Virus record (IMG/VR): IMGVR_UViG_3300020195_000181
Location: 1 to 21,671 of that record
Length of the DNA: 21,671 nucleotides
Source of the DNA: a virus
Reading direction: 5' to 3' (one strand)
Shown here in pieces: positions 700 through 21,327 of the stretch. The position numbers were made by a program, and so were the translations under genes. Each line of letters opens with the position of its first letter. The first letter of the stretch is position 1. The notes below the pieces were generated by a model that ran no database searches, had not been told where the DNA came from, and worked only from the letters and a program-made list of their open reading frames with translations.

Positions 700-926
700 T
701 CCCGCGCGACCCCGACCGCAACGCCTGGGCCTGCCACCCCGCGGCCAGCCCCTGTTCGAAGCTGCTCTCGCGGTGCTGGACCCGGGACCCCATCGACGGG
801 GGCCCCCTCGCCCTGTTCCTCGACCGCCTGGACATCCGCCGTGGCTTCGCGGCCGTGCGCTCTCAGCTCTTGGCCTGGCTCTCAGAGCCCGTGCTCTCCG
901 GAGGTCCCCATGGTTGCGAAGCCTGA
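696..926 (+). CDS. Small protein of unknown function (76 aa)
   Basis: The GTG at 696 lies in a GTGA overlap with the upstream antitoxin-like gene and gives 76 residues. The last 17 bases overlap the start of the methyltransferase gene at 910. The sequence has three Cys in its first ~30 residues (WACHPAASPCSKLLSRC) and one near the end, plus a probable amphipathic helix (LALFLDRLDIRRGFAAVRSQLLAWL). The Cys/His pattern (C-x-H, C, C) could hint at metal binding but does not match a zinc-finger family I recognise. GGAGAG ends five bases before the start. The overlaps on both sides and the good ribosome site support a real gene; no function can be assigned. Confidence 0.5.
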   Translation: MIPRDPDRNAWACHPAASPCSKLLSRCWTRDPIDGGPLALFLDRLDIRRGFAAVRSQLLAWLSEPVLSGGPHGCEA

Positions 927-2256
927 TCAGAGCGGCCTGGGCCGCGTGCGCCTGGAGAACCGCCGCGTCGCGGACCTCATGCCGGCGGCCTACAACCCGC
1001 GATCGATCTCGCCCGACGCACTCGCCGGCCTGGGCGAGTCCATCGGCCGCTTCGGGCTGGTGCAGCCGATCATCGTGAACGCGCGCACCGGTCGCGTCGT
1101 CGGCGGCCACCAGCGGCTCAAGGTGCTGGAGGCCAAGAGCGTCGAGGCCACGGATGTCGTCGTGATCGACGTCGAGGAGGCCGAGGAGAAGGCGCTCAAC
1201 CTGGCGCTGAACTCGCCGCGGATCTCGGGCGAGTGGACGGTCGAGGCGCTGGGGCTGCTCGAGGAGGTCGTGGGCGCGCTGCCCGACCTGGGCGAGTCGC
1301 TCCGGCTGCTCGACCTGCGTGGCGACCTGGAGAAGCTCTTCCCGGACGCTGCCGGTGACTTCGTGGAGGACGAGGTCCCGGAGCCCCCCGACGACCCGAT
1401 CACGAAGCCCGGCGACCTCTGGGTGCTGGGCGAGCACCGCGTCCTCTGCGGCGACTCGGGGAGCGTGGAGGACCTCGACCGGCTCCTCGACGGGGCCCCG
1501 GTCCACCTGCTGAACACCGATCCGCCCTACAACGTGAAGGTCGAGCCGCGCTCGAACAACGCGATCCGCGCCGGGCTCTCCTCGTTCGCCGCGCCCGAGA
1601 AGCGCCACCACCAGGCGATGGACCTCGCGCGCCACCCGGGGAAGAGCAAGCCCACGCACAGGAAGATGCGCGCGAAGGACCGCCCGCTCGCCAACGACTT
1701 CCTCACCGACGAGGAGTTCGAGAAGCGTCTACGCGCGTGGTTCGGCAACGCCTCGCGCGTCATGCTCCCCGGGCGCGCGGCCTACATCTGGGGTGGCTAC
1801 GCCAACGTGGCCAACTACCCGCCGGCGTTGAAGGAGGCGGGCCTCTACTTCAGCCAGACCATCATCTGGGACAAGCAGCACCCCGTGCTCACGCGCAAGG
1901 ACTTCATGGGTGCGCACGAGTGGTGTTTCTACTCGTGGAAGATCGGCGCCGCGCACGTGTTCTACGGCCCGGCGAACGTGCCGGACCTGTGGCAGGTGAA
2001 GAAGGTGACGCCGCAGAAGATGATCCATCTCACAGAGAAGCCCGTCGAGCTCGCGGCGCGCGCGCTCAAGTACTCGTCGAAGTCCGGCGAGAACGTGCTC
2101 GACCTCTTCGGCGGCTCGGGCAGCACGCTCATGGCCTGCGAGCACCTCGGGCGACGCGCGTTCCTCATGGAGCTAGACCCCGCGTACACCGACGTGATCG
2201 TCGAGCGGTGGGAGAAGGCGACGGGCCAGAAGGCCGTGCGCAAGGGGCGCAGCTGA
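910..2256 (+). CDS. ParB-like domain fused to a beta-class DNA methyltransferase
   Basis: A 448-residue protein that transfers a methyl group from S-adenosylmethionine to DNA adenine N6 or cytosine N4. Residues ~15-110 are a ParB/sulfiredoxin-type domain: NPR, then LGESIGRFGLVQPIIV, then GGHQR at 65-69. The methylase follows, with catalytic motif IV DPPYNV at 204-209 and AdoMet-binding motif I DLFGGSGST at 398-406, preceded by TEKPVEL. Motif IV before motif I is the beta-class order. The ATG at 910 is chosen over in-frame upstream starts because GGAGG (900-904) lies five bases before it. This fusion is common in phages near terminase genes, where it can mask the genome from host restriction or set packaging or transcription timing. 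Which role applies here is inference. No cognate endonuclease gene is adjacent. Confidence 0.92.
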   Translation: MVAKPDQSGLGRVRLENRRVADLMPAAYNPRSISPDALAGLGESIGRFGLVQPIIVNARTGRVVGGHQRLKVLEAKSVEATDVVVIDVEEAEEKALNLALNSPRISGEWTVEALGLLEEVVGALPDLGESLRLLDLRGDLEKLFPDAAGDFVEDEVPEPPDDPITKPGDLWVLGEHRVLCGDSGSVEDLDRLLDGAPVHLLNTDPPYNVKVEPRSNNAIRAGLSSFAAPEKRHHQAMDLARHPGKSKPTHRKMRAKDRPLANDFLTDEEFEKRLRAWFGNASRVMLPGRAAYIWGGYANVANYPPALKEAGLYFSQTIIWDKQHPVLTRKDFMGAHEWCFYSWKIGAAHVFYGPANVPDLWQVKKVTPQKMIHLTEKPVELAARALKYSSKSGENVLDLFGGSGSTLMACEHLGRRAFLMELDPAYTDVIVERWEKATGQKAVRKGRS

Positions 2257-4422: not shown

Positions 4423-6143
4423 TCGGCATCCTGCGTCGGCTCTTCGGCGGCGGGGCGCGCGCGAGCGCGAGCTTCGGGGAGACCACGGACCTCCAGAACC
4501 CCGCGCACTGGCTCACGGGCTGGGCGCTCGGGCGCCAGACGGCGAGCGGCGAGCGCGTGACGGCCGAGTCTGCGCTCGGGCTCTCCGTCTACTACGCCTG
4601 CCTTCGGAACGGCGCCGAGGACGTCGCCAAGCTGCCCCGGCAGCTCCGGCGCTCGCGGGGCGAGCAGCGCGGGAGCGATCTCGTCCAGGACCACCCGCTC
4701 GCCCACGTCTTGAAGCGCCCGAACCCCGTCATGTCCTGGGGCGTGTTCGCCCAGGTGATGCAGCACCGGCGCATGGCCTGGGGGAACGCCTACGCCGAGA
4801 TCGTGCGCGACGGGACCGGCGCGCCGGTCGAACTCTGGCCCGTGCATCCGGGGCGCGTGAGGCCCGAGCTCAAGCGCGACGGCCGCACGCTCGTCTACCA
4901 CGTCCGGGGCGAGGGGACTCGCGAGGTGCCCATCGCGCCGCGGGATGTGTTCCACCTGCGCGGGCTGGGCTCGGGCGTCGAGGGCTACTCGGTCGTGCGC
5001 TTCGCGTCGGAGACCTTGGGCCTGGGGCTCGCGGCGCAGCGCCACGCGGCGGCGTTCTTTGGAGAGGGGCTCGCGAAGCGCCTCGTGGCCTTCACGAAGC
5101 AGACCTTGAACGCCGACGCGCGCGAGGCGCTCAGGAAGCGCATCGAGGGCGACCGCGAGAAGAACGTCGTCGGCGCCCGGCGCATGCCGATCATCGACGT
5201 CGAGGTCGACGTGAAGGATCTCGGGATCCCGCCCGAGGAGGCGCAGTTCCTTGAGCAGCGGGAGTTCGGTGTCGAGGAGGTCGCGCGCTGGTTCCGCATG
5301 CAGCTCGCGAAGGTGCAGTACTTCAAGCGCGCCCAGGGGTGGTCGTCGCTCGACGCGCTCAACACCGACTACGTCGTGGACTTCCTGACTCCCCAGGTCC
5401 AGACCTGGGAAGAGGAGATCGCCGTCAAGCTCCTGACCGACGAAGACCGCGCCGAGGGACTCTTCGTGCGGTTCGTGCTCCAGGGGCTGCTCCGCGGCGA
5501 CGTCTCGACGCGCATCGCCTACTACTCGGCGGGCTACCGGGACGGGTGGCTCTCGCAGAACGACATCCGCGACCTGGAGGACATGAACCCGATCGAGGAC
5601 CCGGCCGCGGACGAGTACCGCGTGCAGGCCCAGATGACGAAGCTCGAGGACGCGGGCGCGAAGCCCAAGGCTCTGCCGCCGGGGCAGCCGAAGCCCCCGC
5701 CCCCCGAGGACGACGAGGAGGACGAGGACGCGGAGGCTGCGTGGCGAGGCGTCCGAGCCGAGGCCGAGGCGCTCCGGCCCATGCTGATCCACACGGCCAC
5801 GGTCCTCGCGCGCAAGGAGGCCCACGAAGTCGATGCGGCCCTGAAGAAGAACGGTCAGAACCCCGCGGCGCTCGACCAGTGGGCACGGGGCTTCAACGCC
5901 CGGCTCCGCGAGCTGGTCGTGGAGGCCTTCGGGCCCGCCGGCCTCGCGATCGACGCGATCACCGGCCGCCACCCCGCCGCGCGCGTCCGGCCCGCGGACC
6001 TGGACGCCGTGGCGCGGGCGTGGACCACGATCGACCTCCGCGCCCCGCGGGCGCCCGAGGCCGATCGCGCCCAGGCCCTCGCCGACGCCGTCCTCGCCGC
6101 GCTCCTTCTCCCCGTCGCCCCGGAGGCCTCCCGTGCTGCCTGA
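4419..6143 (+). CDS. Portal protein (HK97-type) with extra C-terminal domain
   Basis: A 574-residue protein forming the dodecameric ring at the capsid vertex through which DNA enters and leaves. The core (residues 1 to ~425) has recognisable portal features: LSVYYACLRNGAEDVAKLP, HPLAHVLKRPNPVMSWGVF, MAWGNAYAEIVRDG, DVFHLRGLG and the GWSSLDALNTDYV segment. An acidic, Pro-rich linker (around 427-445) leads to a helical C-terminal part (WRGVRAEAEALRPMLIHTA, then RKEAHEVDAALKK). This extension is seen on many relatives of this portal and is longer than HK97 gp3. The ATG overlaps the terL stop. The end overlaps the protease start by 11 bases. The core call is firm; the role of the extension is unknown. 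Confidence 0.95.
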   Translation: MIGILRRLFGGGARASASFGETTDLQNPAHWLTGWALGRQTASGERVTAESALGLSVYYACLRNGAEDVAKLPRQLRRSRGEQRGSDLVQDHPLAHVLKRPNPVMSWGVFAQVMQHRRMAWGNAYAEIVRDGTGAPVELWPVHPGRVRPELKRDGRTLVYHVRGEGTREVPIAPRDVFHLRGLGSGVEGYSVVRFASETLGLGLAAQRHAAAFFGEGLAKRLVAFTKQTLNADAREALRKRIEGDREKNVVGARRMPIIDVEVDVKDLGIPPEEAQFLEQREFGVEEVARWFRMQLAKVQYFKRAQGWSSLDALNTDYVVDFLTPQVQTWEEEIAVKLLTDEDRAEGLFVRFVLQGLLRGDVSTRIAYYSAGYRDGWLSQNDIRDLEDMNPIEDPAADEYRVQAQMTKLEDAGAKPKALPPGQPKPPPPEDDEEDEDAEAAWRGVRAEAEALRPMLIHTATVLARKEAHEVDAALKKNGQNPAALDQWARGFNARLRELVVEAFGPAGLAIDAITGRHPAARVRPADLDAVARAWTTIDLRAPRAPEADRAQALADAVLAALLLPVAPEASRAA

Positions 6144-7321: not shown

Positions 7322-8638
7322 GTGTCCAAGTTCGCCCTCGTCGCAGAGGAAGCCACCAAGAAGGCCGCCGCCAAGCGCGCCGAGGCCAACGCGCTCGCCG
7401 AGAAGGATGGCGGCCTCTCCAAGGAGGAGGCCGCTCGATTCGACGGCCTGCTCGCCGAGGCCGACGCCTTCGACGTCGAGGCCACCGCGAACCGCACCCG
7501 CGCCGACCGGCTCCAGGCCAACGGCTCCGCGCTCGCGAGCTACAGCCAGCCCCGCCCGCGGCAGGCTGCCAGCCCCGAAGGCGAGCCCCTCGTGGCGCGG
7601 GAGGCCTGGCGCGACGACCCCAAGTGTGGCTTCAAGGGCCCGCGGGACTTCCTCCTCACGGTCCTGGAGGCCCCGACCTCGCGGCGCCTGGACGACCGCC
7701 TGCGGTTCCTCTCGGCCGCGGGCTCCGACGAGCACGGCGAGTACAGCGACCCGCACGGGAACTTCCTGCTCCCGACCGGCTTCTCGCCCACGCTCATGAC
7801 CACCCCGACCGAGGCCGACCCGGTCGCGGGCCGCACCACGGCGCTCCCCATGACCTCGCCGGTGGTCGAGTGGCCCGCGCGCGTGGACAAGGACCACACG
7901 ACCTCGGTCAGCGGCGGGCTCACCGTCACGCGCAAGGCCGAGACGGTCGCGGCCGCCTCCAGCCGCATGAAGTTCGAGAAGATCCGCCTCTCGGTGGACG
8001 ACCTCTTCGGCGTCGCGATCGCCACGGAGCGCATCCTCACCGACTCGCCCATCTCGTTCGCAGCGCTGCTCGACGCCGGCTTCAACGACGAGTTCGCCGC
8101 GCGCATCCTCTTCGAGCGCCTCTACGGCTCGGGCATCGGCGAGTACCTGGGCGTGCTCAACTCGCCCTGCCTCGTCGCGATCGCGCGCAACACGGCGGCC
8201 TCGATCAAGGGGGCCGACATCCTGACGGCCCGCCGGCGCTGCTGGCGCTACAGCGAGGCCATCTGGCTCGCCAACCACGACACCTACGAGGACCTCGCCA
8301 AGGCGCACATCTCGGGCACCAACGGCGACGTGTTCCTCTTCAACCCCGCGCGCGGCGAGGACGTGCCCGACATGCTGCTCGGCCGCCCCGTGTTCTTCAC
8401 GGAGTTCGCCGAGACCAAGGGCACGAAGGGCGACCTGCTGCTGGGCGCCTGGTCCCAGTACCTGGAGGGGACCTACCAGACGACCGAGCGCGCCGAGTCG
8501 ATCCACGTCCGCTTCCTCGAGCACGAGCGCGTCTTCAAGTTCTGGCTCCGCAACGCCGGCGCCCCGTGGTGGAACGCCGCCCTCACGCCCAAGAAGGGCG
8601 CCGCCACCCTCAGCCCCTTCGTGACCATCGCGACGTAG
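7322..8638 (+). CDS. Major capsid protein (HK97 fold)
   Basis: A 438-residue protein that builds the icosahedral shell. Residues ~3-65 are an Ala/Glu/Lys-rich coiled coil (EEATKKAAAKRAEANALAEK), the delta domain expected to be removed by the upstream S49 protease. After a Pro/Gly linker, the HK97-fold body follows with PTGFSPTLMTTPTEADPVAG, the P-domain region with FEKIRLSVDDLFGVAIATER, and the C-terminal A-domain with RPVFFTEFAETKGTKGDLLL and ending in FVTIAT. The GTG start at 7322 is chosen over the upstream in-frame ATG (7289) because GAGGAGG (7309-7315) sits six bases before it. It is the only gene here with a long untranslated leader, consistent with separate or boosted expression. Confidence 0.92.
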   Translation: MSKFALVAEEATKKAAAKRAEANALAEKDGGLSKEEAARFDGLLAEADAFDVEATANRTRADRLQANGSALASYSQPRPRQAASPEGEPLVAREAWRDDPKCGFKGPRDFLLTVLEAPTSRRLDDRLRFLSAAGSDEHGEYSDPHGNFLLPTGFSPTLMTTPTEADPVAGRTTALPMTSPVVEWPARVDKDHTTSVSGGLTVTRKAETVAAASSRMKFEKIRLSVDDLFGVAIATERILTDSPISFAALLDAGFNDEFAARILFERLYGSGIGEYLGVLNSPCLVAIARNTAASIKGADILTARRRCWRYSEAIWLANHDTYEDLAKAHISGTNGDVFLFNPARGEDVPDMLLGRPVFFTEFAETKGTKGDLLLGAWSQYLEGTYQTTERAESIHVRFLEHERVFKFWLRNAGAPWWNAALTPKKGAATLSPFVTIAT

Positions 8639-15239: not shown

Positions 15240-18200
15240 GTGGCGAATGCAAGCCTCCTCTACAAGCACACCTTCGACGGGGCGGGCTACCCCTGGTTCA
15301 ACGTCGTCTGGCCGGGCTTCTCCTTCCCCGAGAGCGGGGACGTGAACGCGCTCGGGCGCACGCGCCCCGTCGTGGACGGCCAGGGGCACGGCTTCGCCTC
15401 GCGCACGATCGGGGGCGTCACCTGGCGCGCGAAGAGCGACAACGCCCCCGGGCGCCAGGCGCACCGCACGGCGCTGTGGGCCAAGTGGAAGAACGCCGGC
15501 TTCGCGGGCCGGCGCGAGGTCGGGATCGTCGTCCGCTACCTCGACGCGAAGAACTGCATCGTGGCGCGGCTCCGGTCGATGGGCACGGCGAACCCCGAGC
15601 TACGCCTCTTCAAGGTCGTGAACGGCGTGGCCACGCAGTTCGGCGCCACCTACACCGGGCCCGACGTCAGCGCCACGCGCTTGAACGCCGGCGTCGAGTG
15701 GGCCGTGCGCGTCGAGGACCTCGCGGGCGGCGACGACACCAAGGTCGAGGTCTACGTCGGGACGCAGACGGAGGCCGCTCGCGGGACGCTCCGGATCTCC
15801 TGGACCGGCGACGTCGGGGCGCTCCGAGGCCTCCACACCTCAGGCGTCGAGCTCCATGACCAGGTCTACGGCGACGACGTGCGCGTGGACAACCTGGCGT
15901 GCTACGACCTCGCCGACGAGTGGAACCCCTCGGGGCCCGCGCCCTCGCCGGGCGCAGGCTGGCACGTCGAGCTCGGGACCACGCTCTACTCGCTCGAGCA
16001 GCTCTCCGCGATGACGCCGCGGATCGACCTCGTGCGCGTGACCCAGGGCTACGGCGCCAAGGGGAACAGCGCCACGTTCCGCGTCTCGGGCGACTACCGC
16101 CAAACCGGCATCCTCTTCCCCGGCCAGACGGTGCGAGTGCTCCACGACGGGGCGGTGCGCTTCCGCGGCTGGGTGGCCGACGGCCAGCTCTCGGCCGACC
16201 CCACCGAGTCCCAGGACTGGAACTGCTACGACGCCTGCTGGAACGCGCGCCTCGTGACCCTCTTGCGTCCCGACAAGGTGGGCGCCTGGTACTACAACGT
16301 GACCGACCGCGAGAGCGACGAGTACGACTCCTCGCTCACGGGCAAGACCATCGGTGCCATCCTCCGGCACCAGTTCGAGAAGAACGCCGCGCTGCTCCGG
16401 TTCTACGGGTGCGCCCCGCCCACGGGGGACGCCTTCGTCTCGACGGAGCTCGACCTGCTGGACGCCGAGATCCCCGACGTCGTGGCCTCGGGGCAGTTCC
16501 CGGTGATGGTCGACACGCTGCTGCGCTTCATGGGCCACAAGTTCGTGGTCTGGGTGGACCCCGCGGACCTGAAGTGGCACTTCCGCAACGTCACGACGCT
16601 CGCCGGCGAGGACGTCTCGTTCACCTCCGAGTGGGTCACGCTCAAGGTGAAGCCCGACCGCGACAAGGCCTACACGCGCGTGGAGTGGCGCGGGACGCGG
16701 AAGGCCGACGCCGAGCCCGTCAGGGTGAAGCTCTCCGAGGGCTCGCTCCGTCCCGTGTGGACCAAGGAGCAGGAGGACAAGTACGGGAAGAGCAAGCGGA
16801 ACAAGACGCTGGCCAACGGGAAGATCCTCGGCGCCGGGCTTGCCGTCGGCCCTGACGGCCTGATCCACGCCTACTTCGACGTCGCCGCGGGCCTCTTCGA
16901 CAACGACGACTTCCGCGGCGCCATCTGCACCAACGAAGGCGATGCGTTCCCGCGCATCGTGATCACGCACTCGAGCACGCGGTTCTGGCTCGACACATCG
17001 GAGTGGGCGGGCGGGACGCCGCCGGTGCCCGGGAGCAACTACCACCTCACCCTCGCTCACCCCGACGCGCTGGCCGCGTTCTCGGCCCAAGGCGTGGGAC
17101 GCGGCCTCTACTTCTTCCCGCCCGTGGAGATCTGCGGCACGGCCGCGTCCGGGCTGATCAAGAACAACCTCTGGCAGCACGGCTTCTGCGGCAAGGCCAC
17201 CGCCTACACGAAGGGTGAAGACGGGACCACGCACTCCGAGGAGTACCAGTATCGCGTCAACGTCCCAAACCAGCGCCAGCGAGACGCCGGTTTCTGCGAC
17301 ACCACGGTCACGCTCTCCGAGAAGCCCAAGCCCTCGATCGGGCTCGTGAACTACCTCCCGCCCGCCGGGGGCTCGCCGCCCACGAGCGCGTGCGTGCCGG
17401 GGAACGCGAACAAGCCCTCGCAGATGCCGCTCGTGGATGTCGAGCTCCAGGTCCCCGTCACCGAAGACGAAGCCGCGTGGTTCGCCGAACCCCCCGACGT
17501 CGGGGACCGCCCTGCATTCCACGGCCCCGCCTACAGCGACGATCCGGCCGCGTGGGACGGGGCCGGCGAGCCCTACGACGACGACTGGCGCTGCACCCAG
17601 ACCTACATCGTGGACGACCCCGACTTCGTGGACATGGAGCAGGAGCCTGGCTTGCGGAAGGCCGCGAAGGCCATCCTCGACGTCAAGGGCCAGAAGCAGT
17701 ACCTGTTCGAGGTCGGGATCGCCTCGCCCTGGAAGCCGCCGCCGGCCACGCCCCCGGTCCACGGCGCGCCCGTGGGAGCCTCGACCTCGCGCTGGGCCGG
17801 GATGAGCAAGCGCATCACGCTCTCCTCGGCGCTCCGCACTACGCAGTTCGAGTCCTCGACCGACCTCCAGGTCTTCAAGGTCACCTGGGACGTCCAGGGG
17901 AACCGCACGATCCTGGAGGCGGGGACGGCCAGCGGGTGGATGGCCTTCGAGGGCGTGGACATCTCGAAAGCCTTCAGCGAGGCGCGCGTGCTGAAGAAGG
18001 CCGCGCGGATGATCAAGGACGTCGAGGACTTCCGAAACTGCCTGCTGACGAAACCCGAGGACCGCATCGGCGGCGTCCAGAAGGGCCCGGTCGACGCGTG
18101 CGACGTCAACATCATCAACGAGCAGGTGCGCCGGGTCGTCACCGTCGAGAAGGACGACGCCGACAAGGTGATGAACATCACCCACCAGGCGATGCGGACC

Positions 18201-19775
18201 TGGCTCGACGAAGAGCTCTCGATCGGGCCCCACGCCGACAACCCGGGGGCCAACATCGCCGTCCCCGGGCGCGACGGGCTCGCCGCGCGTCAGGCGATCG
18301 ACGGGCCGGTGCTCCGCTCGCACGCCGACCCCGACATCCCGTTCCAGGGACCGGCGGTCGGGAACAACGGCGACCGCGGGCGCTACGGCGGGCAGATCGT
18401 GACGGACGCCTCACTCGACGGGCGGCCGCCCCGCGAGTTCTACCGGCGCGGGGGCTTCGCGTTCCGAAAGCGCGAGGACGGGGCCGCGAACCCAGCGGGT
18501 GGCCCGGGCGTCGAGTTCGCGACCGTCGGCCCTGACGGCGCGCCCACGGGGGCGTGGACGCCGTTTACGAGCGCCCGGAGCCTGCCCAACCAGCGCGCCC
18601 CGCTCTCGATGCTGGCCCACGGGTCGACCCAGCACCAGCTCTTGGAGATGGCCCACGAGCTCGCGCGCGCGCTCGGCCGCGTCGAGGACGAGGTCACGCA
18701 GGCACTCCTCGCTCCTGGCGACGTCGGCGTGGGCCACCCCGACGGTGCGCCCGCGGACCTCGGCTCGATGCTGCGCGTGGCGGGTGTGGCGAACCCGTGG
18801 CTACGCCCCGTGCCCGGCTCGTTCGATGATCCGGGCGGGCTCGTGTTCCGGGGGCCGGTCAACGACATGGGGGCCGACGCGGGCCTCCTCTGGCGCGTGC
18901 GCACGCCCGAGCTGCTCCTGATGCGGGTTTCGGCGGTCGGCCCCGGCGCGGGGACCAACGGCGGCAGCTACGCCTGGGACACCTCGGGCCCCGGGGGAAC
19001 GACCGAGTTTCTGTCGAGCGCGTCGGTGGTTCACAAGCAGATGGACCCCGTCGCGCTGTCCCGTGACCTGCGCCTCCCGGGGAGCACATCGCCTGTCTCG
19101 GCGTCGAACCCCTTCGGGTTCGTGAACGAGGGGATGCTGCTCAACTCCACCGGGGCGGGGGTGGTCTCGGGCGCGGGCGGGCTCCTCCCCATGCCGCCCT
19201 ATGCCCGCGGGACGGTCGGCCTCTGGGCGCTGCTCGCCGAGAGCCCCGCCGGCGCGCCGCTCCCGGCCGGGCAGACGTACAACGTCCGGATGGACGTCGC
19301 GTGGAAGTCGTCGCCGTGGGGCGTGCCCGCGGCCGGGGCACCCGCGAACGTCCCCGTGGCCGACGGCACTGGCCAGGGCACGGCCGTCTACAAGGGGCCG
19401 GGCGGGGCCGTGCCCCCGGGGCTTCGCAAGCCCAGTGACCTCGCGGTGTCCCTCGTCTACTCACCGGGCCTCGGCACCGCGCCGCTGAACCGTGGACTCG
19501 TGCTCCTCGGGATCGGCGTCGAGATCGCCGTCGTCGAGGGCGGCTACGCGCTGCTCACTCAGGAGGGCCTGGAAGCGTCCGAGGACTGGCGGACGAGCCA
19601 CGCGCAGCCCGTCGAACGGTTCGCAGCCCTCGACGTGTGGACGATGACGGTCACGAAGGCCATCGCCGACACGTTCGAAGCGACCGAGTCGTGGGCCCTC
19701 GAACTCAACCCCGGCGTCGTTGAGTTCGACGCGTTGGACCTCGCCGAGTCGTGGGCACTCGTACTCAATCCGTGA
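15240..19775 (+). CDS. Large tail hub/fibre-like protein (1511 aa)
   Basis: The largest gene here. Residues ~1-225 form a concanavalin/LamG-like jelly-roll pattern (LLYKHTFDGAGYPWFN, then AVRVEDLAGGDDTKVEVYVG, then YGDDVRVDNLACYDLADEW), a fold often used for carbohydrate binding. From ~258, a hub-like domain begins: TPRIDLVRVTQGYGAKGNSA, then PGQTVRVLHDGAVRFRGWVADG, recalling the 'G..v.v..dg..~f.G.v' signature of gp27-type baseplate hubs. The middle (to ~950) appears beta-rich. From ~1100 a fibre-like part follows, with a helix (LLEMAHELARALGRVEDEV) and Gly/Pro-rich strands. The end carries short repeats (FEATESWALELNP at 1479-1491). The GTG at 15240 is two bases after the previous stop. It probably combines tail-tip hub and receptor-binding roles; no lysin motif is seen. 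Confidence 0.72.
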   Translation: MANASLLYKHTFDGAGYPWFNVVWPGFSFPESGDVNALGRTRPVVDGQGHGFASRTIGGVTWRAKSDNAPGRQAHRTALWAKWKNAGFAGRREVGIVVRYLDAKNCIVARLRSMGTANPELRLFKVVNGVATQFGATYTGPDVSATRLNAGVEWAVRVEDLAGGDDTKVEVYVGTQTEAARGTLRISWTGDVGALRGLHTSGVELHDQVYGDDVRVDNLACYDLADEWNPSGPAPSPGAGWHVELGTTLYSLEQLSAMTPRIDLVRVTQGYGAKGNSATFRVSGDYRQTGILFPGQTVRVLHDGAVRFRGWVADGQLSADPTESQDWNCYDACWNARLVTLLRPDKVGAWYYNVTDRESDEYDSSLTGKTIGAILRHQFEKNAALLRFYGCAPPTGDAFVSTELDLLDAEIPDVVASGQFPVMVDTLLRFMGHKFVVWVDPADLKWHFRNVTTLAGEDVSFTSEWVTLKVKPDRDKAYTRVEWRGTRKADAEPVRVKLSEGSLRPVWTKEQEDKYGKSKRNKTLANGKILGAGLAVGPDGLIHAYFDVAAGLFDNDDFRGAICTNEGDAFPRIVITHSSTRFWLDTSEWAGGTPPVPGSNYHLTLAHPDALAAFSAQGVGRGLYFFPPVEICGTAASGLIKNNLWQHGFCGKATAYTKGEDGTTHSEEYQYRVNVPNQRQRDAGFCDTTVTLSEKPKPSIGLVNYLPPAGGSPPTSACVPGNANKPSQMPLVDVELQVPVTEDEAAWFAEPPDVGDRPAFHGPAYSDDPAAWDGAGEPYDDDWRCTQTYIVDDPDFVDMEQEPGLRKAAKAILDVKGQKQYLFEVGIASPWKPPPATPPVHGAPVGASTSRWAGMSKRITLSSALRTTQFESSTDLQVFKVTWDVQGNRTILEAGTASGWMAFEGVDISKAFSEARVLKKAARMIKDVEDFRNCLLTKPEDRIGGVQKGPVDACDVNIINEQVRRVVTVEKDDADKVMNITHQAMRTWLDEELSIGPHADNPGANIAVPGRDGLAARQAIDGPVLRSHADPDIPFQGPAVGNNGDRGRYGGQIVTDASLDGRPPREFYRRGGFAFRKREDGAANPAGGPGVEFATVGPDGAPTGAWTPFTSARSLPNQRAPLSMLAHGSTQHQLLEMAHELARALGRVEDEVTQALLAPGDVGVGHPDGAPADLGSMLRVAGVANPWLRPVPGSFDDPGGLVFRGPVNDMGADAGLLWRVRTPELLLMRVSAVGPGAGTNGGSYAWDTSGPGGTTEFLSSASVVHKQMDPVALSRDLRLPGSTSPVSASNPFGFVNEGMLLNSTGAGVVSGAGGLLPMPPYARGTVGLWALLAESPAGAPLPAGQTYNVRMDVAWKSSPWGVPAAGAPANVPVADGTGQGTAVYKGPGGAVPPGLRKPSDLAVSLVYSPGLGTAPLNRGLVLLGIGVEIAVVEGGYALLTQEGLEASEDWRTSHAQPVERFAALDVWTMTVTKAIADTFEATESWALELNPGVVEFDALDLAESWALVLNP
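19684..19772 (+). repeat. Short C-terminal tandem motif repeat in the tail protein
   Basis: CCGAGTCGTGGGC occurs at 19684-19696 and 19744-19756, and the following bases remain nearly identical. In protein these are ESWALELNP and ESWALVLNP, the second forming the exact C-terminus. FAALDVWTMTV and LEASEDW just upstream look like more degraded copies. Confidence 0.55.
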
Positions 19776-19789
19776 GGCGTCGACGTCGC

Positions 19790-19806
19790 CCGCGTTACGG
19801 ACGCGG
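19790..19806. terminator. Possible bidirectional terminator hairpin between convergent genes
   Basis: CCGCGT (19790-19795) pairs with ACGCGG (19801-19806) around a TACGG loop. It lies exactly where the forward tail gene (stop at 19775) and the reverse nuclease gene (stop codon 19795-19797) converge; only 19 bases separate the coding regions. An 8-bp palindrome, CGTCGACG, precedes it. There is no T-run on either strand, so the terminator reading is tentative. Confidence 0.35.
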
Positions 19807-20541
19807 CGAGGTAAGTTGCACCCGTCGGAGCGAGACCGAGAGCATGTACTCGTAGAGCGTCACGGCAGGGACCTCCGAGCACGCCAGCCGCAGGTCCTCC
19901 GAGATCTCGCGCGCGACGATGACCCCGCGCACCCCTTGTCCCGCCTCCGCCTGATTCAGCTTGATCCACGAGAGGTATCGGAGCGTCTGTCCGACGACAC
20001 GGTCATAGCCTCGGGACACCTTGAGTTCGATGACCACCAGGGCGCCTTTGGCATCAACCGCGAGGATGTCGACGAAGCGTCCGCCAGCGGGAAACTCGAC
20101 ACCGGTGACCCCTTCCTCCTCGTACAACCGCAGGCCCGGCTCGATCAGCGAGAGGTTCTTGGCAAGGAAGTCCCGCAGGTCACTCTCGTAGGCGAACTCT
20201 TCCCCGGATGCTTCTTCCGGGGTCGGCGGCTGCGGCTCGACAGCGGGCGGGCGTGCATGTATGGGCGCTGGGTCCCTGGACGGGTCGTAGAGGCGGAACA
20301 TGCTGCCGTCGACCTGATAGAGCAGATCCTCGTCGGCGCGTGCTCCATAGTGCAGCCTGCTTGGCATGTTCGTCGCGAAGCGCGTCAGGTGGGCTGTGAT
20401 CGTCCCCTGTTTGATCTTCGGGTAGTGCTCCTTGAACCACGCGAGGGCGCTGTCTCGCGAGAAGACCTGCCCGGGCTTGGGTGCCAGGTGCCGGACCATC
20501 TCAGGGATGATGGATCGCACGGGGCGGTCGTAGATCGGCAC
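19795..20541 (-). CDS. PDDEXK-superfamily (NucS/DUF91-like) nuclease with N-terminal helical domain
   Basis: A 248-residue protein, the only reverse-strand gene. Residues 1-~90 look like a winged-helix domain (DUF7669-like, low certainty): VRSIIPEMVRHLAPKPGQ, KIKQGTITAHLTRFATN and DEDLLYQVDGSMFRLYDPS. After a Pro-rich linker (91-112) comes a NucS-like PDDEXK core: E119 in YESDLRDFLAKNLSLIEPGL, D158 in GRFVDILA, the E172-L-K174 triad end in VVIELKVSRG, and Q185/Y189 in GQTLRYLSWI. All catalytic positions are intact. The GTG start at 20541 has GGGAG (plus strand 20550-20554) eight bases upstream. Blocks counted inside it are 62-65% GC, below the tail genes. It is probably laterally acquired cargo (a 'moron'), perhaps for defence against other phages; that role is inference. 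Confidence 0.82.
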   Translation of the reverse strand: MPIYDRPVRSIIPEMVRHLAPKPGQVFSRDSALAWFKEHYPKIKQGTITAHLTRFATNMPSRLHYGARADEDLLYQVDGSMFRLYDPSRDPAPIHARPPAVEPQPPTPEEASGEEFAYESDLRDFLAKNLSLIEPGLRLYEEEGVTGVEFPAGGRFVDILAVDAKGALVVIELKVSRGYDRVVGQTLRYLSWIKLNQAEAGQGVRGVIVAREISEDLRLACSEVPAVTLYEYMLSVSLRRVQLTSPRP

Positions 20542-20700
20542 GGTTGGTGCTCCCGTTGGGCGCCCGCTCGCCCGGTGCGTCCTGGGTCATCGATGTGGGA
20601 TTGGCGTGACCGCCAGCCAACCACGCGGGGCCTCGGTGCGGTACAATGCGCCGAGACTTCGCGCGCCCGACTCCAGCCGGACGAGCGAGAGGAGCCCTTC
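20542..20700 (+). promoter_or_regulatory. Intergenic regulatory region between divergent genes
   Basis: A TACAAT box (20642-20647) suits a -10 element for the forward gene at 20701; no convincing -35 lies 16-18 bases upstream. It sits at the centre of an inverted repeat, CTCGGTGC (20632-20639)/GCGCCGAG (20648-20655), seven of eight positions matching. A second dyad, TTGGC (20601-20605)/GCCAA (20616-20620), with nested GGCG/CGCC, lies upstream, centred about 43 bases before the inferred transcription start. AGAGGAG (20688-20694) is the downstream ribosome site. I found no clear promoter for the reverse nuclease gene, which must also start here. Confidence 0.5.
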
Positions 20701-21327
20701 ATGCCCTCTCCCCTCGGCTGGATCCTGATCGCCCTCGTGCTCACCTCCCTGCTCGCGCTGCGCCGTCGGCGTCCGCCCCTGCGGCTGGCCGACGGCGGCC
20801 GGCTGCCTGACGACATGGACTGGGCTGCGTTTGCCCGCGCTGCGCGCGAAGTCGCCGAGTGCGCTCGGAGACCGGGCCGGGAGCGGCCCATGGCCCTTCG
20901 CGCCGTCTGGGACCTCGCGCTCTTGGGGCCCGACGGCCAGGTGAAGACCCGGCGGCGGTTCAAGAACCTGATCGTCAACGCGGGACTCGACCGCGCGAAG
21001 GACCGGCTCTTCAACCCCGCCACGCTCGCAACGGTGTTCGGCTACGTCGCGATCGGCACGGGCGCCGTCGCCGAAACACCGGTCGATGTCGCGCTCGGGA
21101 CCGAGGCGGCACGCGCTGCCGTCGCGTACACGTCCGGCGGCACGGGCGTCTGCACCGTGGACCACACGTTCCCGGCCGGCACCGGCACCGGCGCCATCAC
21201 CGAGGTCAGCCTGTTCGACGACCCGGCCGCGGGAAACATGTTCAACCGAAAGACCTTCCCGGCGATCAACAAGACGGCGGGGGACGCGTTGAAGGCCTCG
21301 TGCACGATCACGCTGGTCGCGGCGTGA
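20701..21327 (+). CDS. Phage tail-tip/fibre-type protein with N-terminal membrane segment
   Basis: A 208-residue product from the ATG at 20701, which has AGAGGAG six bases upstream. Residues 5-20 (LGWILIALVLTSLLAL) form a short hydrophobic helix followed by RRRR, suggesting a membrane anchor with a cytoplasmic C-terminus. From residue 64, the sequence matches a widespread phage structural pattern: LLGPDGQVKTRRRFKNLIVNAGLDRAKDRLF, then VAIGTGAVAETPVDVALGTE, then ITEVSLFDDPAAGNMFNRKTF, ending in a strand. That domain has its own strong start: GGGAG (20879-20883) six bases before the ATG at 20890, which would give a 145-residue soluble form. Known relatives of this domain lie near tail fibre genes; no function is established that I can name. 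It resumes the forward operon after the nuclease gene. Confidence 0.65.
   Translation: MPSPLGWILIALVLTSLLALRRRRPPLRLADGGRLPDDMDWAAFARAAREVAECARRPGRERPMALRAVWDLALLGPDGQVKTRRRFKNLIVNAGLDRAKDRLFNPATLATVFGYVAIGTGAVAETPVDVALGTEAARAAVAYTSGGTGVCTVDHTFPAGTGTGAITEVSLFDDPAAGNMFNRKTFPAINKTAGDALKASCTITLVAA

Follow-up and report, generated by a model that had tools for sequence, protein, structure and literature searches.

The nuclease gene at 19795-20541 is well supported as cargo inserted backwards between two tail genes of a phage, and it is most likely a recently acquired accessory (moron) gene. On balance, and at a little better than even confidence, we favour the reading that this moron encodes a type IV-like restriction nuclease that works by itself, its winged helix (wH) reading modified or otherwise non-self DNA and its PDDEXK domain cutting it. 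The analysed DNA, here called the window, is a stretch of 21,671 nt. The following features of the junction and of the gene were located.

15243-19775, plus strand: upstream large tail gene, about 1510 aa, start uncertain.
19776-20640: inserted stretch of about 865 bp, in place of which the relatives L002 and L003 have an 11-12 bp spacer.
19790-19806: GC hairpin over the nuclease stop codon, a possible terminator without a T run (fold about -15 to -18 kcal/mol).
19795-20541, minus strand: wH-NucS-type nuclease gene, 248 aa, with GTG start and TAA stop and with full-length homologues at 46-65% identity.
19849-20187, minus strand: PDDEXK nuclease domain, residues 119-231 (Pfam PF01939 NucS_C, E=3e-12).
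20188-20289, minus strand: variable linker, residues 85-118, with low model confidence at 103-109.
20290-20523, minus strand: winged-helix domain, residues 7-84 (Pfam PF24706 DUF7669, E=6e-19).
20542-20640, minus strand: 99 bp upstream of the nuclease gene, the presumed location of its promoter, ending at the right-hand insertion edge.
20641-20700, plus strand: conserved leader of the downstream gene with a TACAAT box, GAGAGGAG, common to L002 and L003, so that the right insertion edge is intact.
20701-21327, plus strand: downstream tail-fibre-like gene, 208 aa, 80-88% identical in L002 and L003.

The gene order of the window begins with a ParB-domain methyltransferase gene and continues through small and large terminase, portal (4425-6143), protease and major head protein genes to connectors, tail terminator, tail completion protein, a weak tape-measure match and the large tail gene. 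The nuclease gene and the tail-fibre-like gene follow. All structural genes from terminase to tail lie on the plus strand. The methyltransferase gene (841-2256, plus strand), just upstream of the terminase genes, encodes a fusion of a ParB-like N-terminal domain and a DNA methyltransferase (phrog_498, E 4e-105), and by this match the phage probably methylates its own DNA. Should the nuclease be a reader of methylation, such self-methylation would be relevant to self-avoidance. The large tail gene gave no PHROG match; its C-terminal 591 aa are 91% identical to those of L002 and L003. The 3' end of this gene (19667-19786) holds an imperfect 60-nt tandem duplication, 72% identical, which encodes repeated ESWALELNP-like motifs and is present in L002 and L003 too. 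No integrase was seen within the 21.7-kb fragment. Two distant relatives by terminase (L011 and L018, 43-54% identity) carry integrases, which indicates that the wider clade includes temperate phages. The whole window had no near relative in INPHARED.

When the tail gene and the gene downstream of it were used to search for further junctions, the IMG/VR contigs L002 and L003 were the only close relatives recovered. Both have the same tail genes, and the flanking DNA is 83-87% identical on both sides. In these contigs 12 bp separate the stop of the large tail gene from the next gene's conserved leader. Homology of the window to both contigs ends at the tail-gene stop at 19775 and restarts at 20641, and the nuclease gene was found in neither (2/2 close relatives with an empty site). 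The 60-bp non-coding leader (20641-20700 in the window, 6407-6466 in L002, 7941-8000 in L003) contains a 37-nt stretch that is nearly invariant between the three sequences, and it is possibly a late promoter or an RNA element. No terminal repeats or target duplication were seen at the ends of the inserted stretch, and transposition was rejected on this account. An integron cassette was also rejected, as inspection of the insert by eye gave no attC-like order RYYYAAC...GTTRRRY.

The composition of the nuclease gene is foreign to the phage. Its GC content is 64.7%, against 69-74% for the other genes of the window. Its GC3 is 81.5%, below the minimum of 87.5% among 85 sampled phage-gene blocks, and its synonymous codon fit is poorer than that of all 85. 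Because of this foreign codon usage, gain by the window phage is a better reading than loss in both of the close relatives, only two of which were found. A first-pass annotation of the DNA had described the gene as the only minus-strand gene of the window, lower in GC than the adjacent tail gene, with its own intergenic region and inserted as cargo in the tail operon, and had suggested comparing related phages for presence or absence at exactly this junction. These points held: it is the only minus-strand gene with homology support, it is set off by 99 bp upstream and 19 bp downstream, and a gene syntenic and GC-matched in all relatives was not what the comparison revealed.

The reading frame of the nuclease gene is intact, with no internal stops. 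A ribosome-binding-like GGGAG motif lies 8 nt upstream of the GTG start. No match to the sigma-70 consensus was found in the 99-bp upstream region, and on the 3' side 19 bp separate the gene from the stop of the upstream tail gene. The NucS_C Pfam match spans residues 119-218, and the active-site set E119, D158, E172, K174 and Q185 is complete. Across a 32-member family alignment D158 never varies, and each of the other four residues is at least 90% conserved. The same alignment identified Y40, H51, N58 and H64 as conserved residues of the winged-helix domain and a linker (85-118) whose length differs between members. The protein is very likely an active nuclease.

An AlphaFold2 model built with the 32-member alignment had a mean pLDDT of 91.7 and consisted of two well-ordered domains with a weak linker between them; the pTM was low (0.55), so that the relative placement of the two domains is undefined in this model. 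The predicted nuclease domain aligned with Pyrococcus abyssi NucS (2vld) at Z 16.7 and rmsd 1.9 over 108 aa (VIA-align) and with EndoMS (5gke) at Z 16.5. Across NucS/EndoMS structures Z was 14.5-16.7, and the first match outside them scored 11.7. The N-terminal domain folded alone (pLDDT 93.2) as a winged helix, and its nearest solved folds were tied: Fur, MCM wH, DpnI wH and linker histone, at Z 7-8 (7.8-8.2). The methyl-reading wH of DpnI, at Z 7.8, is one of several wH folds at such scores. Winged-helix domains are generic, and a Z near 8 falls short of indicating methyl reading. The predicted two-domain fold, wH plus NucS-type PDDEXK, is well supported. It agrees with the first-pass annotation, which had noted an N-terminal winged-helix-like domain and a NucS-like nuclease with intact PDDEXK residues; neither a missing PDDEXK fold nor a lost active site was found.

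Single-sequence scans of the viral and genome collections gave no matches, and the homologues were found with an alignment query. This query located 78 loci in bacterial and archaeal genomes, the weakest match being to the NucS part alone. Besides the window, about 15 viral contigs matched across both domains (L107-L116 and L118-L122), of which L110 and L111 are near-copies. No family member was found among the 50,697 deposited phage records of INPHARED (E 1e-5), with the window protein as well as with a group-2 protein (see below) as query, and no isolated phage carrying a wH-NucS gene was found. Standard phage databases miss the wH-NucS family. The family is spread sparsely, as a solo gene, over many bacterial phyla. 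DUF7669 was detected in 7 of the 300 genomes sampled from one family and in 3 of the 199 sampled from one genus, counts that include the seed genome, and in none of 14 controls. The GC content of the family gene is often well under that of its surroundings (0.49 vs 0.64 at L034, 0.55 vs 0.67 at L042).

The family tree, with a partly open backbone and a number of long branches, showed two deep groups with viral members in each. In the nearest relative (L107, 65% identity) a phage integrase gene precedes the family gene by 11 bp. Prophage-like contigs L118-L120 have a cI-like repressor some 5 kb from the nuclease gene, in L108 the gene lies beside a filamentous-phage integrase, and in L112 and L115 it is near terminase genes. 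Conjugative plasmids also carry family members. In the isolate-derived viral contigs L118 (4148-6149) and L119 (7986-9972) the nuclease is followed by the same two low-GC genes, of 215 and 87 aa, which are possibly a shared cargo block.

Group 2 proteins have about 30% identity to the window protein. In L109, L110, L114 and L116 their genes are antisense in the tail-gene K-I gap of lambda-like prophages, a placement based on gene order plus PHROG-confirmed flanks on one or both sides. The window placement and the group-2 placement are separate events, and antisense carriage in the tail module arose more than once. The K-I gap of L109, L110, L113, L114 and L116 serves as a cargo site: it carries several small genes, oriented both ways, and some of those adjoining the nuclease encode uncharacterised proteins. 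In isolated Pseudomonas phages the gap is filled differently: Medea1 has other cargo there, an antisense regulator among it, and CF183a has small ORFs only.

Neighbouring genes were compared at 33 loci (n=101), and no family occurred in more than 2-3, among 25 of 106 Pfam families listed. A regular partner gene was rejected on this result. Only the gene itself, not its flanks, is common to the window and its relatives. Some individual settings were recorded. In L048 (6734-9166) the copy interrupts a housekeeping operon cleanly, as one inserted gene between pyruvate-dehydrogenase-complex genes (biotin-lipoyl E2-like and Pyr_redox_2 dihydrolipoamide dehydrogenase-like). Polaromonas sp. JS666 has two copies (L044, L045) about 67 kb apart on one contig. 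In L038 the family member neighbours a minus-strand gene (7488-7892) which, from its first residues, we take to resemble the Vsr short-patch repair nuclease. The plasmid relative L023 adjoins a DNA methyltransferase gene.

With no fixed partner among the families listed at the 33 loci, the nuclease would have to tell self from non-self alone. Standing alone without a methyltransferase was the argument for predicting modification dependence of wH fusion endonucleases, several of which proved to be 6mA-dependent type IV enzymes (PMC11037411), and the same argument leads us to favour a type IV-like enzyme here. The first-pass annotation had suggested a defence effector, and this idea is favoured by the sparse solo distribution, the repeated carriage by temperate phages and plasmids, the match to a PADLOC candidate and the precedent of the wH fusions (PMC11037411). 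In the proposed mechanism, the N-terminal winged helix would bind a mark of foreign DNA, of which a base modification is the likeliest candidate. Metal-dependent cuts would be made by the NucS-type PDDEXK domain, which is flexibly linked and probably dimeric. The nuclease would act alone, without a partner gene, and a promoter of its own, directed against the late operon, would drive its expression. The outcome would be the exclusion of competing phages or plasmids, a benefit in phage competition.

Four other explanations were weighed, and each is less consistent with the pattern than a type IV-like nuclease. The closest solved relatives of the nuclease domain are the mismatch endonucleases NucS and EndoMS, so the protein might be a DNA-repair or phage-replication nuclease, cutting mismatched or branched DNA in the service of phage DNA metabolism. 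However, a winged helix replaces the NucS N-terminal DNA-binding domain, the score against the NucS equivalog model is 59 bits where the cut-off is 216, and the gene occurs sparsely and alone, runs antisense to the phage operon and is absent from the closest phages, all of which make a repair role unlikely. A free-standing homing-type endonuclease would cut the uninterrupted junction and have its gene copied in by repair, without benefit to the host cell. This would account for a nuclease gene that stands by itself in a short spacer amid structural genes, for the empty site in close relatives and for relatives that have the gene alone, not the flanks, in common. A shared target site is nevertheless missing, as the 65% relative follows an integrase gene and others occupy unrelated chromosomal sites, and the wH-PDDEXK architecture is in general that of restriction enzymes. 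We know of no wH-NucS homing family, and we consider homing decidedly unlikely.

The window does encode a DNA methyltransferase, and a plasmid relative adjoins one (L023). The nuclease could then be half of a sequence-specific restriction system whose methyltransferase is elsewhere, for example the ParB-domain enzyme of the phage. Yet the two genes are 17.5 kb apart in the window and no neighbour family recurred at the 33 loci, among the 25 of 106 families listed, and we find such a system quite improbable. The failure to find a promoter consensus upstream and the orientation against the late operon would also suit a passenger that is decayed or silent and has no function at present. An intact frame, start codon and active site, together with full-length similarity to distant relatives, make this very improbable.

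A wider proposal is put forward tentatively: wH-NucS may be a single-gene restriction family that has so far escaped characterisation, its winged helix making a reader and cutter of modified invader DNA out of a nuclease of the mismatch-repair type. It would have spread as one-gene cargo, inserted antisense into the tail modules of unrelated phages on repeated occasions, and would let the prophage or the infected cell exclude rivals with modified DNA. Winged-helix fusions to other nucleases read adenine methylation. A wH joined to a NucS-type nuclease would be a new pairing and would explain how the fold of a repair nuclease came to be used in conflict. Its repeated occurrence in temperate phages marks the family as a likely weapon in phage-phage competition, and as a small (about 250 aa), single-gene family present in many phyla it is easily testable.

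The window protein shares with EndoMS/NucS (PF01939; 2vld, 5gke) the C-terminal PDDEXK fold (Z 16.7) and the D..ExK..Q residues. It differs in having a winged helix (DUF7669) where those enzymes have the NucS N-terminal domain. Only NucS_C matched; the score for the equivalog NCBIfam NF003270 (59 bits, cut-off 216) is far under the cut-off, and an EndoMS/NucS orthologue was rejected. EndoMS/NucS is a conserved repair gene, whereas the window nuclease is a solo accessory gene. Shedu (SduA) was rejected as well, since Pfam SduA_C scored 12.5 bits against a cut-off of 27 and the similarity was in fold only (Z 7.9). In PADLOC, residues 114-239 matched positions 177-306 of the 308-position profile of the phage-defence candidate PDC-S02 (E 9e-23); the first 176 positions were unmatched, and the match is therefore to the nuclease half alone, not full-length. 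In the literature searched, PDC-S02 was mentioned in survey-type papers only, and no paper on DUF7669 was found.

The wH fusion endonucleases include DpnI, FcyTI, Psp4BI, HhiV4I and wH-GIY-YIG (PMC11037411); a NucS or DUF91 fusion is not named in the text of that paper. Like these type IV enzymes, the window protein combines a wH and a restriction-type nuclease in one chain, and its wH resembles that of DpnI (Z 7.8). Its gene, like theirs, may stand alone: no neighbour family recurred among those listed at the 33 loci, but L023 adjoins a methyltransferase gene and the phage encodes a distant one. In contrast to them (PMC11037411), its wH is N-terminal and its nuclease is of NucS type. Plasmid proteins annotated as 'endonuclease NucS domain-containing protein' (e.g. 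WP_159609066) have the same two domains over their full length at 47-52% identity and are true family members; their setting is plasmid or chromosomal, in contrast to the phage tail operon of the window gene. Like phage morons and the K-I gap cargo of lambda-like Pseudomonas phages, the window gene is a foreign antisense gene between tail genes, with the presence/absence at the junction and the foreign composition of a moron; the phage lineage and the junction differ from those of the K-I cargo. The window protein belongs to an annotated but uncharacterised family. What is new for it is that phages carry it, here with an exactly defined empty site, that it has been placed antisense in tail modules repeatedly, and that it can be linked to the wH fusion endonucleases.
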